A DNA stretch of 64,000 nt from Schizochytrium sp. TIO01 (taxonomy: Eukaryota > Sar > Bigyra > Thraustochytrida > Thraustochytriidae). Location of the stretch: contig SMSO01000036.1 in NCBI GenBank assembly GCA_004764695.1, positions 2,516,001 to 2,580,000 of the forward strand. Direction: 5' to 3'. How positions within the stretch are numbered: position 1 is the first letter of the stretch; every line of letters starts with the position of its first letter. This document shows positions 24,835 through 30,934 of this stretch, piece by piece. A program made the position numbers and the translations under genes. Below the pieces are notes generated by a model, which was given only the letters and a program-made list of their open reading frames with translations, searched no databases and had not been told where the DNA came from.

Positions 24835-27800
24835 ATGGATTCGTACGGGTCTCCGCGGCAGCGTCGCAGGTCAGACCTGCGTCTGCGGATTCCACCGCTG
24901 TCGGAGGAGGAGGAGGTATTAAATGAGGAGGAGGGCGTCCGCGCCGCTTCCGGCATTAGCCAGTATAGACGGCTCAACTCAACCTCATTGGCCTCCACGA
25001 GCGCCACAGCTGCTGCGTCGAATCCAAATGCTTTGAATTTAGACGCAAACGCAGGTTCAAGTTCTGCCATGGCCGACGAAATGCTTTCACATACGCCTTT
25101 CTCGCACGGCAGCTCGAGAAACAGACCAAAGTCGCCACGAAGGAGCCCTGGGTTGGGCCCAGGAGGACCAGGAAGACCCAAATCACCGCAGAGACGTAGT
25201 CCAAATCTTTTGCCACAGCAGCACCCGCAGCAACATCATGGCAAAAGTTCGCAACGCAAAAGTAGCCCAAACTTGGGCCCTTCGTCGATGTTGCTGCAAA
25301 GATCGCCTCAAAGGTCACCTCAAAGGTCACCTCAAAGATCTCCACAAAGATCTCCACAAAGATCTCCACAAAGGTCACCTCAAAGAACTTCACAAAGAAG
25401 AAGTCCTGGATATGGACCCATTGCAGGTGCACTAGAGTCGACTTCAACCTTCGGAGGGTCACCAAACTCTGGATGGGGAATGCCGCCTCAACATCAACAC
25501 CGTCGAAGGCTAGATACGGGAGATACATGTTCAACATGCGGAGATCTAGACATGGGTCCAAGACATAGACACCTCAGACACCTAGAAGGCGAACCTTTTC
25601 AGGAAGGCATGGTTGCCAAACCAGCCAAAGGGCCCTTCAAGTGGCTAAGATGGGGGCGCACAACAATGCAGGCTCCGGAAGGCGCATTGAACCTAAATGA
25701 TATTGAGAATCAGATTCCAACCGTAGATGGGCTCAGAAGGCCACGGTTAGAGTCATCGGGTACTTTTTCGTCAAGGTCCTCGTTTTCGTCTATACTTTCG
25801 TCTAACTTAAAGCGTGTGCGCTCGATTTCGAACCTACTTGCGCAGAACCAAAATCACCCACACCACCATCACCATCACCACCATCACCATCACCATAGTC
25901 ACCACAGCCATTATTCCCAGTCTCAGCGACTGAGCGACGCACAATCCTCGTCTCAGTCCAGTGAATACTCCATGTCCGACGTGTCTGATGATCCTGACGC
26001 AAGTTGGTCCCGCCGAATTCTATCCCGTGATCAGTGGTATCACCAAAGTACAGGTGATATGATTATTGATCAGGTTGGCTCACAAGGTCTTTTACGCGAA
26101 ATCTTCAAGCTATATCAGGATGACTGGTTTCATGTAGCCCTTACGCAGCGAACCTACATCCTTTTTCTTGGCGTCATCTGCATTTATACCATGTACTTGG
26201 TTGTCTTCGCTGGCATCTACACGGCATTTCGAGATCCGTATAACACACGTTGTGCTCTCGATGTTGTGGATCCATCCGAGCTTGCGCGCCACCCGTTCCT
26301 CATGTCGTTCTCATTTGCCCTTATGACTGCAGCCACAGTCGGCTACACTCTACCTGATCACCAAGAAGGCGCCTTTTGGCATGACTGCTTTGCGATGCCC
26401 ACTGTGGTTTGGTGGCAAAGTTTTTTTGGAGACTTACTTAATGCACTTTTGGTCTCTCTAGTGGTAACTCGCGTGGGCCGTGCTGATCTGCGAGGTCATC
26501 AAGTTGTCTTCAGTAATAAGGCTTGTATCGTCAGCCGAAATGGTAAATTTTATTTTGCATTCCAATGTTACGACCTGGACATGTCTGCACCCATTGTTGA
26601 AGGCCATGTGCGCTGTTATGTGGTTCTCAACGAGACTGATGGTAATACTACTGCAAACTTCCAAACCCGCCACATGCGCCTGGTCAACCCTGATGACGCT
26701 CTCGGTGCAAATCTCTTTCTTAGTATGCCATGTGTTGTAGTACATGAGATAGACCAGTGGAGTCCACTTCTGCCTCCCACCATGCGCCGAGAACATTGGC
26801 AAGCTCATAATGATGGCTTCGTGCATAATCCTGCAAACCGCTACCGTTATCCTAATGTTTGTCTGCGTGAATCCGACGGAATCTCAGGTACCCGTGGGGC
26901 AGCCCAGTGCCCAGTCTGCGCATGGACCTTGTACACGGACGAGCACCTGCTTCGACATGTCCGCTTTCATCAATATGTCGAGCATGCAAAGTTTGAGGAG
27001 GATTCTGATGTTGAGGAGGAGGAAGATTTATGCGAAACCCCTCTACGCCGTCGTGAGATTTGTTGGAGTCCTCGCGACAGCCTCATCAGAAGCCTTTCTG
27101 CCTCAATTGATGGCGTTGATCGCGGCGGAGCATTTCGTTTAGATGGATTTGCCTTGGGGGGCTCTAAGGGCGGCAGCTTTAATCTTCCACCCCCCCTTCT
27201 TAAACCCAACGTTGTATCATTTCGCAGTCTCAAGAAGAAAAGTAGCTCTTCTGATGACTCGGAGCTAGATGACGAAGAAGAAGAGAAAGCAGGGGCTGAT
27301 TTTGGTGCTCGTGGAGCTAGGCATTTTGATTTTCAATTAGACAATGATGATGACGATGGTCTGCCCAAGGATGGTGCCCCCCCCCCGTTGGATTTAAATA
27401 ATGACGAAGAGCCTAAACCTGCTTCGGTTGCTAAATCTCAGCAGCCTGCTGGTAAATCAATTCTGCACTCGGTCAATTTTCGCATGGATACAGAACCTAA
27501 ACGCGCTAATGCCACCACCACCAGTGACAACGACAACAACAATGACGAAAAGGCACTTCAAATCGAGCAGCAAGAGCAACAAGATAAGGCATCACAGGGC
27601 GCGTCCAAACTCCATGGGCTCTTTAATGCGCCACCAAATGATGAAATCAAGACCTCCACATCGATGCCTGCGCGTCCAGAGCGCAGTGCTGGCGGGTCTG
27701 AAAACACAGACATTAAAATCACTGCTACACAGTCCTTCAATTCTATTGATGTTGGAACAGAAACTGGACGCAAACGAGAGGATTCACGCTTCAGTGTGCA

Positions 27801-28443
27801 TAGTCGAAGCTCGCGCCGCCGTAGTCACAGCCACCACCATAGTAGTTCGCGTGCTAATAGTGTTCACGACAGGCTGGAAAAGGAGTATCAAGAGCAAATC
27901 CGTCGCGGTAGGTCACGCCGAATTCATCAACATAAGACAGTGAAGCTCAATTACCTGGAAAGTTCAATCGATGAACGTCTCAAGGATCTTTCTGATCTTA
28001 ATAAGCCATCAGGCCATAGTGAGCTTACTGTGGAAGCTCTCACATCGCATGATCGTGTTGTTCATAAAGAAGATGAGGTCGAGCGTCTTCGCGAAGAAGC
28101 GGAGGTACGAGAGTCTTCAGCATCAGCAAAACGTCGGCCTTCATCTTCTCTTTGCCGTACAAGCAAGTTTGTCAAAGACGTCAAGCACTCAATTCAGCAC
28201 TTTATTGAAGCTTCGGAACTAGAAATTATTGTCATTGTAGAAGGTATAGAAGCCCAGTGCTCCACAACCTTTCAATCCCGTCACTCATACACGATGGATG
28301 ATATTATGTATGACCACTGGTTTCGCGATGCTTTTGGCCCAGATGAGCGCAACCCAAGTAGAATGGTGGTCAATCTTAATCACTTTCATGACACCGTCCC
28401 ACTGGACGATCGCACCAAGATTCCTGTCCAGTCTGTGCTTTAG
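24835..28443 (+). CDS. Inward-rectifier-type (Kir) potassium channel with split cytoplasmic domain and zinc-finger insertion
   Basis: This 1,202-residue membrane channel is about three times the usual Kir length. The N-terminus is disordered: seven QRSP repeats (about 155-185) and a run of 12 His (343-354). The channel core follows: slide helix DDWFHVALTQ (429-438), M1 (about 441-463), pore loop with filter TVGYT (501-505) and M2 (about 521-545). M2 carries the Kir pattern QSFFGDLLNA. By alignment N536 sits at the rectification-controller site (Asp172 in Kir2.1, Asn in Kir1.1). The cytoplasmic domain begins with VSRNGKFYFAFQC, IVEGHVRCYV and VVHEIDQWSPL (to 645). It is then broken by about 465 acidic, Ser- and basic-rich residues. 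It resumes with ELEIIVIVEG (1128-1137) and finishes at VNLNHFHDTVPL. The insertion has a C2H2 zinc-finger pattern at 692-712. The frame is open throughout and starts at a true ATG. Ion selectivity is uncertain because the last filter Gly is Thr. Confidence 0.9.
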   Translation: MDSYGSPRQRRRSDLRLRIPPLSEEEEVLNEEEGVRAASGISQYRRLNSTSLASTSATAAASNPNALNLDANAGSSSAMADEMLSHTPFSHGSSRNRPKSPRRSPGLGPGGPGRPKSPQRRSPNLLPQQHPQQHHGKSSQRKSSPNLGPSSMLLQRSPQRSPQRSPQRSPQRSPQRSPQRSPQRTSQRRSPGYGPIAGALESTSTFGGSPNSGWGMPPQHQHRRRLDTGDTCSTCGDLDMGPRHRHLRHLEGEPFQEGMVAKPAKGPFKWLRWGRTTMQAPEGALNLNDIENQIPTVDGLRRPRLESSGTFSSRSSFSSILSSNLKRVRSISNLLAQNQNHPHHHHHHHHHHHHSHHSHYSQSQRLSDAQSSSQSSEYSMSDVSDDPDASWSRRILSRDQWYHQSTGDMIIDQVGSQGLLREIFKLYQDDWFHVALTQRTYILFLGVICIYTMYLVVFAGIYTAFRDPYNTRCALDVVDPSELARHPFLMSFSFALMTAATVGYTLPDHQEGAFWHDCFAMPTVVWWQSFFGDLLNALLVSLVVTRVGRADLRGHQVVFSNKACIVSRNGKFYFAFQCYDLDMSAPIVEGHVRCYVVLNETDGNTTANFQTRHMRLVNPDDALGANLFLSMPCVVVHEIDQWSPLLPPTMRREHWQAHNDGFVHNPANRYRYPNVCLRESDGISGTRGAAQCPVCAWTLYTDEHLLRHVRFHQYVEHAKFEEDSDVEEEEDLCETPLRRREICWSPRDSLIRSLSASIDGVDRGGAFRLDGFALGGSKGGSFNLPPPLLKPNVVSFRSLKKKSSSSDDSELDDEEEEKAGADFGARGARHFDFQLDNDDDDGLPKDGAPPPLDLNNDEEPKPASVAKSQQPAGKSILHSVNFRMDTEPKRANATTTSDNDNNNDEKALQIEQQEQQDKASQGASKLHGLFNAPPNDEIKTSTSMPARPERSAGGSENTDIKITATQSFNSIDVGTETGRKREDSRFSVHSRSSRRRSHSHHHSSSRANSVHDRLEKEYQEQIRRGRSRRIHQHKTVKLNYLESSIDERLKDLSDLNKPSGHSELTVEALTSHDRVVHKEDEVERLREEAEVRESSASAKRRPSSSLCRTSKFVKDVKHSIQHFIEASELEIIVIVEGIEAQCSTTFQSRHSYTMDDIMYDHWFRDAFGPDERNPSRMVVNLNHFHDTVPLDDRTKIPVQSVL
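25303..25392 (+). repeat. 12-nt tandem repeat encoding QRSP units
   Basis: About seven 12-nt units of the form CAAAGRTCNCCT lie inside the channel N-terminus. Synonymous changes between copies (AGGTCACCT against AGATCTCCA) show they are not all recent duplicates. Low-complexity Ser/Pro/Arg repeats of this kind are possible phosphorylation sites; that is inference. Confidence 0.8.
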
Positions 28444-29072: not shown

Positions 29073-30934
29073 TTATTCCGGGGTACTTGCTCGCCGTTTT
29101 GGTGTCACCAAACGAACTAAAGGCTCACGAGGTGTTTGTGTCAACAACTTGTCACGATTTTTGGTTTGCACAGGTGTTGTCATGCTTCGACTACGAGCGC
29201 CCACATTTGACTCGGACTCTTCTTTAAGAAAAGAGGAAGTAGCTCCACGCCGCCGCCGCTTCACTTGCTGGATAATTGTTCTTACATTTTCAGAGAGAAC
29301 ACGCTGTCTTCCCTCGCCTTGAGCATTCGCAATCTTTTGTGCAGCGTGAGATGTGGTTTCATCAAAGGGAAAAATACAATCGAAAACTGAGAGTTCCTTG
29401 ACTTCTGTATCGATTGCCGAATTCTCTTGAGTATCTTTATCTCCGCCTTCCTCGCCAAAGTGTCTTACTGGCTCTTGAGCCTCTGTTTCAATCGCAGTAA
29501 CTACATGCGATGCAGAACCTGACTTGTTAAAATCAATTTCCTGCCTTTCGTCCACCGAAGGGCAAATTTGCGATTTCCTGGTTGATGATGCGTTCGAAGG
29601 AAATCCCCACGACCGCCTCATGCTACGTACCGTTGACTTACGAGCGCTACACGACTTTGGTGCGGACGACGTTGAGGCCTGCACTAAGTCAAACATAGCT
29701 CGGATCAAGGGCTCCTTAACTCGGCGGTCAATACCACAGTCAATTGAAAGTGCAGGAGCGCAATTGACCTCGAGAAGCCAAGGACGTAGTGCCTCATCCA
29801 CAAGAATATCAAAACCAAAGAGTTCAAAGCAAGAAGAACTTAACGCGCCTGGCTGCAAGGCAGTAAGGATAGTGCAGATTGCGATATCGCAAATTCTTCG
29901 CCAAAGAGTCGCGAAACGGTCCTGAATGAAATGTGCTGGGGAAGATGATGTATCAGAGAAAATATTGTTATTCTGAGGAGCATTCATCCAACGCCGCAAG
30001 GACGCAAAATCCCACTTGCATCCAGACCCAATGACATCTTTGTCGGTATTGTAAGTCTGCGATAATTTATTAATTGAGCTGTTGGTCAGATGAGAAAACA
30101 AATTGTCAATCTCTTGCATATTGTTGTCATACTTGGCGGTTCCAAAGCGCGCTAAGCCATTACGGAACACGTGAATCCGCAAAGGTTGCATACTGGTTAC
30201 AAGAACATAAACACGTAAATCTACTTTATAGCCTCCAATCGTCATTGGGTTGGGGACATAACGTTGAATAACATACTGTTGATCATAACAGAGCTCAGAA
30301 AGGTCTTTGATTAGAAAAATCTTTCGACCTCGAGAGAGATCAGCTGGCTTGCAAATCCACACAGTTTGCGAGTTTTTTTCTCCCAAGGTTTTCTGGGCCT
30401 CGTCATCCTCTGCATAGGCTTGCACAAATTTTGTATATTCTGAAGGAAGAATGAATCCTGCTGGTACAAAATCAAAAATACGACCATGCACAGCACGCAT
30501 CTTGCGCATAGCTCGGATCAAAAGATCTTTTTTGTAAGACATTTTGTATGAGGGAAATGATTAACTCGATCACCTCTTTCGTGTCCAAGTCGGAACTCAG
30601 TTGGGGTAAATCTGCAGTTTCTCCAGCAAATGACAAATGGAGAAACACTGACCTGATTTCGCTTGCGATGTGGGAGCAATTTGCTCCTATTAATACTATA
30701 ACCGGTGCTCTTCTGCTGCTGAAACTTTTTCTTTGATTGTAGCTGATGTTGCTGTGTAGACGTTTGCGAAGCACCATTTTGTGTTTCTGCCTTTTCGCTT
30801 GGTTCTGCATTCACAACCACTTGCCATTTTCTTCGCAAAGCCTCCTCACGAACTGGCAAGGGACATGTCTCAAACACACGAAGGATGCCAAGTTGCTGTT
30901 TGCCCTCAGACGTGTCCTGGACAAGAACCGACAT
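29073..30934 (-). CDS. Tubulin tyrosine ligase-like (TTLL2-type) polyglutamylase, frame change at 30528-30533
   Basis: This ATP-grasp enzyme should add glutamates to tubulin tails, typically in cilia or basal bodies. The main frame (29073-30542) has the family core: CKPADLSRGRKIFLI, YVIQRYVPNPMTIGGYKVDLR, FSHLTNSSINK, and the metal-binding end FELFGFDILVDE...PWLLEVNCAPAL. The N-terminal part of the same family domain (LRVFETCPLPVREEALRRKW, CWRNCRF, VNHFPHTKCLTKK) is in a different frame, 30518-30934. Joining the frames at the A6 run (30528-30533 as T on the plus strand) gives NHFPHTKCLTKKDLLIRAM, which matches the usual TTLL pattern HFPGT...LTRKD. The intact protein would be about 620 residues. 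I chose ATG 30934 because upstream codons in that frame lack an ATG before a stop at 31001-31003. The C-terminal 170 residues are disordered and basic. Closest to TTLL2 by motif memory; the exact paralogue is unsure. Confidence 0.88.

Follow-up and report, generated by a model that had tools for sequence, protein, structure and literature searches.

Introduction

Regulation of inward-rectifier potassium (Kir) channels usually depends on separate partners, such as G proteins, SUR and PIP2. Zinc has a place in the cytoplasmic assembly domain of Kv channels, where the N-terminal T1 domain carries interfacial sites at which zinc bridges subunits. In Kir channels, strand bH leads into the G-loop, which is the cytoplasmic gate (PMC6336875). 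Experiments with engineered insertions have shown that inserted domains can control the gating of Kir2.1, and that its surface helix aG did not accept inserted domains (PMC6336875).

Here we describe a Kir-family gene in which the cytoplasmic domain is split by a long insertion. It is located in the window, by which we mean the whole stretch of 64,000 nucleotides that was analysed. The host genome searched consists of 64 Mb in 37 contigs, with the window at 2516001-2580000 of the contig labelled C35, and it contains four Kir genes: the window gene, P0002 (contig C34), P0003 (C30) and L006 (C6).

Results

Identification of a split Kir channel

The open reading frame at 24835-28443 on the plus strand runs without interruption for 1202 codons. 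Its parts are as follows.

24835..28443, plus strand: gene for a Kir-family channel in one open frame (1202 amino acids plus stop)
24835..26004, plus strand: N-terminal extension, residues 1-390, low complexity, with SPQR repeats and poly-His; no Pfam family
26005..26772, plus strand: Kir core, first part, residues 391-646, with TM1, pore, TM2 and the first half of the cytoplasmic domain, ending HEIDQWSPLL
26335..26349, plus strand: selectivity filter TVGYT, residues 501-505, from an alignment of four Kirs; the last Gly of T-x-G-Y-G is Thr
26773..26994, plus strand: conserved proximal module, residues 647-720; 47% identity and dN 0.46 to P0002
26908..26970, plus strand: C2H2-like motif CPVCAWTLYTDEHLLRHVRFH, residues 692-712, with C692, C695, H708 and H712, and also H704
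26995..28170, plus strand: low-complexity tether, residues 721-1112, rich in Ser, Glu, Asp and Arg; no Pfam family
28171..28440, plus strand: Kir core, second part, residues 1113-1202, with the helix before bH, bH (EIIVIVEG), the G-loop GIEAQCSTT, the RHSY strand and the C-terminus

IRK_C was the sole Pfam family on the window protein, matched in two stretches (total E 5.6e-19, the first at 557-646) with a score of 68.9 bits against a curated cut-off of 22.5. The best PDB matches in the sequence search were Kir6.1, Kir2.2 and GIRK2, each aligned in two pieces, from residue 419 or 451 to 646 and then from 1121-1127 onward. With phmmer, residues 419-646 paired with residues 56-278 of Kir6.1, and the match restarted at 1127, which corresponds to Kir6.1 residue 288. 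AlphaFold (AF2), provided with an alignment of 24 bacterial Kir sequences, built a confident Kir core (pLDDT mostly 80-95) with two transmembrane helices around a pore helix and a beta-sandwich cytoplasmic domain. The best Foldseek matches in the PDB for this core were GIRK2, Kir6.x, Kir2.2 and KirBac3.1, and the top 50 structure matches were all Kir, KATP or KirBac, save for one untitled transmembrane protein that was named Kir5.1 in the sequence search. Thus, based on the IRK_C match, the two-piece PDB matches and the AF2 core with its structural matches, the assignment to the Kir family made in the first-pass annotation is secure.

The N-terminal extension showed 17.6% forced identity to P0002. 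It contains a tandem SPQR repeat at 25304-25400 and a poly-His tract at about 25857-25895. A second CxxC followed by His residues, CSTCGDLDMGPRHRHLRH, was observed at residues about 232-249 (about 25528-25581); this stretch is kept in neither P0002 nor P0003 and may be due to chance. The N-terminal region of L006 contains CKECRMPRLQTHH, which can be compared with it. The neighbouring gene at 29073-30542 on the minus strand is convergent with the Kir gene and belongs to the tubulin-tyrosine-ligase family (PF03133, E 1.5e-65).

Length and coding status of the insertion

The cytoplasmic domain is split between HEIDQWSPL, which runs to residue 645, and EIIVIVEG, which starts at residue 1130. Measured in a joint alignment between the SPL turn and the first Glu of strand bH, the linker is 484 residues long in the window protein as compared to 13 in 79 of 79 bacterial Kirs. 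The short contiguous linker, from which the window protein departs, is an observed regularity of the family and not a defining trait. In the phmmer alignment, a gap of 9 residues in Kir6.1 corresponds to 480 residues in the window protein. The net excess of the window linker is 471 residues, close to the roughly 465 residues of the first-pass annotation, which had also placed the break correctly (HEIDQWSPL/ELEIIVIVEG).

The 476 codons of the insertion are open in only one of the six frames, and the other two frames of the plus strand contain 5 and 57 stops. Of 2000 Markov sequences of the same length, none had an open frame among the three examined, and the G+C content by codon position was coding-like. 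Neither a canonical 5' splice donor (GTRAGK, GTATGT, GTGAGT or GTAAGT) nor an acceptor with a 6-base pyrimidine tract was found in 26761-28215. The insertion of P0002, located on another contig, has the same start and is also open. Taken together, these observations indicate, at the level of sequence, that the insertion is coding and not an artefact.

A conserved module followed by a tether

The insertion had been described as one unit. It is real, but consists of two parts, the module at residues 647-720 and the tether at 721-1112. Comparing the window gene with P0002 codon by codon, the module showed 47% identity and dN 0.46 as compared to 50% and dN 0.45 for the channel core; only dN was compared since the synonymous sites are saturated. 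The module has the consensus PPxxxRxxWxxxNDxFVHNxxNRYxxPxxxLRExDxxxGxR, which is followed by the finger-like motif. As the module also occurs in a sister gene of this genome, we regard it as a genuine component of the protein rather than accidental. The module with the finger is represented by two sequences, the window gene and P0002. In P0003, NPSKENIFPGVIQRDCDVENGSRD pairs with NASNRYIFPGLILREADTETGNRD, the 24-residue motif preceding the finger, at 31.2 bits (best of 200 shuffles, 21.2), and no finger follows this shared motif. Viral contigs were scanned with P0002, P0003 and the core and module alignments, and bacterial genomes with the eukaryotic alignment; no relatives were found in either. 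Related protists may commonly carry the module.

The tether of approximately 390 residues is probably disordered: 74% of its residues are disorder-promoting (E, K, R, Q, S, P, D, N, G, H, T), and hydrophobic residues make up 19% as compared to 44.5% in the core. It aligns to P0002 by force only, with 24% identity, dN 1.18 and no clear conservation. A weak blastp match between the two tethers (E 8e-4), obtained without compositional correction, was set aside. The AF2 model mostly had pLDDT below 50 here, with two helices of moderate confidence at about 903-925 and about 1011-1040. The core-like conservation of residues 647-720, and the lack of clear conservation over the approximately 390 residues that follow, suggest that the insertion is a constrained module joined to a fast-evolving tether.

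The C2H2-like motif

Residues 692-712 display the spacing C-x2-4-C-x12-H-x3-5-H, and CPVCAWTLYTDEHLLRHVRFH agrees exactly with C-x2-C-x3-L-x5-L-x2-H-x3-H, as the first-pass annotation had stated. The spacing C-x2-C-x12-H-x3-H arose in 0.02% of 20,000 shuffles of the 476-residue insertion, and the stricter pattern with the hydrophobic residues in none of 20,000. The counterpart in P0002, CPICGETFPTDQHLLRHIRYQ, keeps both Cys, the Pro between them and His708 at the same spacing, and its finger hydrophobics are better than those of the window protein, with Phe for Leu. The fourth ligand, His712, is Gln in P0002; the four ligands are thus not all conserved, and classical zinc binding by the candidate C2H2-like module is not secured. 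His704 is also kept, so that the set C-x2-C-x8-H-x3-H is common to both genes, as is the CPxC pair (CPVC/CPIC). The other Cys and His residues of the segment (C675, H653, H658 and H717) are not kept in P0002.

Searches with profiles showed a resemblance to C2H2 fingers that stays below the curated Pfam cut-offs. Against PF00096, the window segment scored 17.6 and the P0002 segment 24.8 of the 25.2 bits required, and the whole P0002 protein scored 20.9 against a cut-off of 27 bits for the zf-C2H2 model. A profile built from the two sequences found C2H2 chains in the PDB (PRDM9, 4.4e-7; a consensus finger, 1.3e-6; single-finger entries, 0.006-0.07), the E-values for multi-finger chains being inflated through the summing of fingers. 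Taken by itself, the window segment reached an independent E of only 0.57 for the best single domain of the top chain. A rearranged control 42-mer matched no zinc finger in the PDB. The finger query found no second place in the host genome; the finger is thus not one scattered copy among those of an abundant repeat. The AF2 model over the motif (pLDDT about 30) is uninformative, as no relatives were aligned there, and a single-sequence model of the module reached pLDDT 34.5.

The case for the finger rests on the two sequences together and on conservation in place. Zinc binding by the motif is probable. Since it is kept in P0002 at core-like rates, we conclude that the finger-like motif is in all likelihood not a chance match. 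The term zinc finger, used in the first-pass annotation, is here replaced by C2H2-like module: the motif is kept in P0002, but with Gln for His712 and with scores below the Pfam cut-offs.

Pore and rectification residues

The selectivity filter of the window protein, TVGYT, departs from T-x-G-Y-G. The filters of the other Kirs in the genome are TIGYG (P0002), TIGYA (P0003) and TLGYG (L006), so that two of the four genes, the window gene and P0003, depart from TxGYG. VEGHVR and the acidic residues of the cytoplasmic pore and EG-G-loop are kept in the alignment. With residue roles assigned as in Kir2.1, the TM2 rectification position is Asn, and the PKKR-type basic cluster after TM2 is missing, with GRADLRGHQ in its place. 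The Asn and the kept acidic residues are suggestive only as regards inward rectification, tetramer formation and PIP2 gating. K+ conduction is not certain because the filter is unusual, and with the Asn and the missing cluster added, the subunit may rectify weakly, have an atypical selectivity or act as a regulatory subunit.

Paralogues and history of the insertion

The SPL-to-bH linker is 484 residues long in the window protein, 340 in P0002, 95 in P0003 and 13 in L006. Core identity to the window gene is 50-52% for P0002, 35% for P0003 and about 19% (18.6%) for L006. The window gene, P0002 and P0003 group together with 100% support, and L006 forms a long isolated branch. The first-pass annotation had held that relatives with adjacent halves and no finger would speak against the insertion. 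L006 is such a relative, and P0003 nearly so, but the insertion is still real and P0002 shares the module. With 13 residues in L006 and 95 residues without a finger in P0003, the comparison shows an insertion that apparently arose in steps within a single branch of the Kir family. In the simplest history, the common ancestor of the window gene, P0002 and P0003 would have had a short insertion; the finger would have been gained before the window gene and P0002 separated, or else P0003 would have lost it, and the tether would have lengthened afterwards.

L006 (match at 1681915-1682376, minus strand) contains two stretches with a glutathione-transferase/glutaredoxin fold after the channel domain (GST_N_2, E 5.3e-17; CLIC-like_N, 6e-7). 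They lie in one open frame, making it a Kir-GST/CLIC-like fusion.

The host genome resembles that of a labyrinthulomycete and is thraustochytrid-like. Complete 18S genes were read with Rfam. The labyrinthulomycete primer LABY-A matched exactly at 43 sites, which are spread over many contigs and often lie no more than tens of kb from a contig end, and LABY-Y, a primer biased against thraustochytrids (PMC10892119), matched with two mismatches. The dispersed copies are consistent with subtelomeric rDNA, as described for Aurantiochytrium by Collier et al. 2023, cited in PMC12221091.

Discussion

Proposed role of the insertion

We propose that the window gene encodes a labyrinthulomycete K+ channel subunit of the Kir type, in which the SPL-to-bH connection has been turned into a regulatory or interaction insertion (module plus tether) upstream of the G-loop gate; we put the chances of this at about even. 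The short connection from the SPL turn to the helix-bH element has become the insertion. The module could form a small accessory domain from the finger helix and the NRY-P-LRE segment, with a metal bound through Cys692, Cys695, His708 and either His712 or His704 probably stabilising it, and might serve as a protein-docking or structural element at the side of the tetramer. The tether of about 390 residues returns the chain to bH. An effect on the gate is plausible, since the C-terminal end of the insertion runs directly into bH, which ends at the G-loop; binding of a partner, or folding and unfolding of the module, could bias the gate. The most economical guess is that the module has a structural or docking role; zinc or redox sensing is possible, and a cleavable tail is a further candidate named in the first-pass annotation. 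A DNA-binding finger was judged unlikely for a single finger in a membrane protein.

Alternatively, the module may be degenerate and metal-free, a conserved docking helix (HLLRHxR) that resembles C2H2 without needing zinc, the exact four-ligand pattern being partly coincidental. The change of His712 to Gln in P0002, the sub-threshold Pfam scores and the conservation of all of 647-720, not of the finger alone, are in line with this. Set against it are the two Cys, the Pro between them and His704/His708, kept at exact spacing when C675, H653, H658 and H717 are not, and the resemblance of both sequences to C2H2 profiles, with P0002 the better. On balance, we consider a metal-free module unlikely, yet the most serious of the alternatives. 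More doubtful is a reading in which a branch of Kir channels in labyrinthulomycetes, perhaps in wider stramenopiles, has evolved a built-in finger that senses zinc or redox state and acts on the G-loop gate; K+ channel control of this type is not known from Kir channels.

Slightly less probable again is a redox sensor, in which oxidation of the CPxC pair, with or without zinc, would release or lock the helix and change the G-loop gate. The pair is kept as CPVC/CPIC, and the glutathione-transferase/glutaredoxin-fold domains of L006 suggest that thiol-linked modules recur in the family; that fusion, however, sits on a distant paralogue (18.6% core identity), and CPxC-x12-H more commonly denotes a C2H2 context.

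A mainly passive insertion, that is, a tolerated surface-loop expansion with the tether as a disordered linker or trafficking tail and no role in gating, would fit the low hydrophobic content and lack of clear conservation of the tether, and the variation in linker length among the paralogues (13, 95, 340 and 484). It leaves the core-like constraint on 647-720 unexplained, and the helix adjoining the insertion site is taken to be aG, which in Kir2.1 did not accept inserted domains (PMC6336875). We therefore regard it as improbable. An annotation artefact, with 26773-28170 wholly or partly intron or assembly error, is hardly credible: poly-C runs near 27190 and 27380 could mask frame errors, but the single open frame of 476 codons, its coding-like composition, the lack of canonical splice sites and the open module of P0002 on another contig all speak against it.

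Comparison with known systems

The window protein shares with eukaryotic Kir channels (Kir2.2, Kir3.2/GIRK2, Kir6.1/6.2) the IRK_C domain in both halves, a modelled core that matches them best, and the VEGHVR and EG-G-loop acidic residues. It differs from them by the insertion of 484 residues in place of about 9, by Asn at the presumed TM2 rectification position, by GRADLRGHQ instead of a PKKR-type cluster and by the filter TVGYT. With KirBac3.1 it shares the layout of two transmembrane helices and a beta-sandwich, the core being alignable throughout, whereas the bacterial Kirs have a constant linker of 13 residues (79/79), none with a finger-like pattern. No report of a Kir channel with a zinc finger was found in the open-access literature, which agrees with the first-pass annotation.

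Like C2H2 fingers (PF00096, PF13894; Zif268 finger 2, PRDM9), the motif has the spacing C-x2-C-x12-H-x3-H, aligned hydrophobic residues and a profile resemblance. It differs in being a single finger inside a membrane channel, with Leu for Phe, scores below the curated cut-offs and the fourth ligand lost in P0002. The T1 zinc sites of Kv channels are similar in that a K+ channel has a zinc-type Cys/His site in its cytoplasmic assembly domain, but the fold is unrelated and the ligand spacing unlike.

The engineered Kir2.1 insertions have in common with this gene that whole domains placed in loops of the cytoplasmic domain can give control of gating; here the insertion is natural and in another loop, near the aG helix reported as non-permissive (PMC6336875). 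A natural, conserved domain insertion by the G-loop gate would be the evolved counterpart of those constructs, and a single genome offers an experimental series, with the finger present in two paralogues, the upstream motif alone in a third and an ordinary loop in the fourth.
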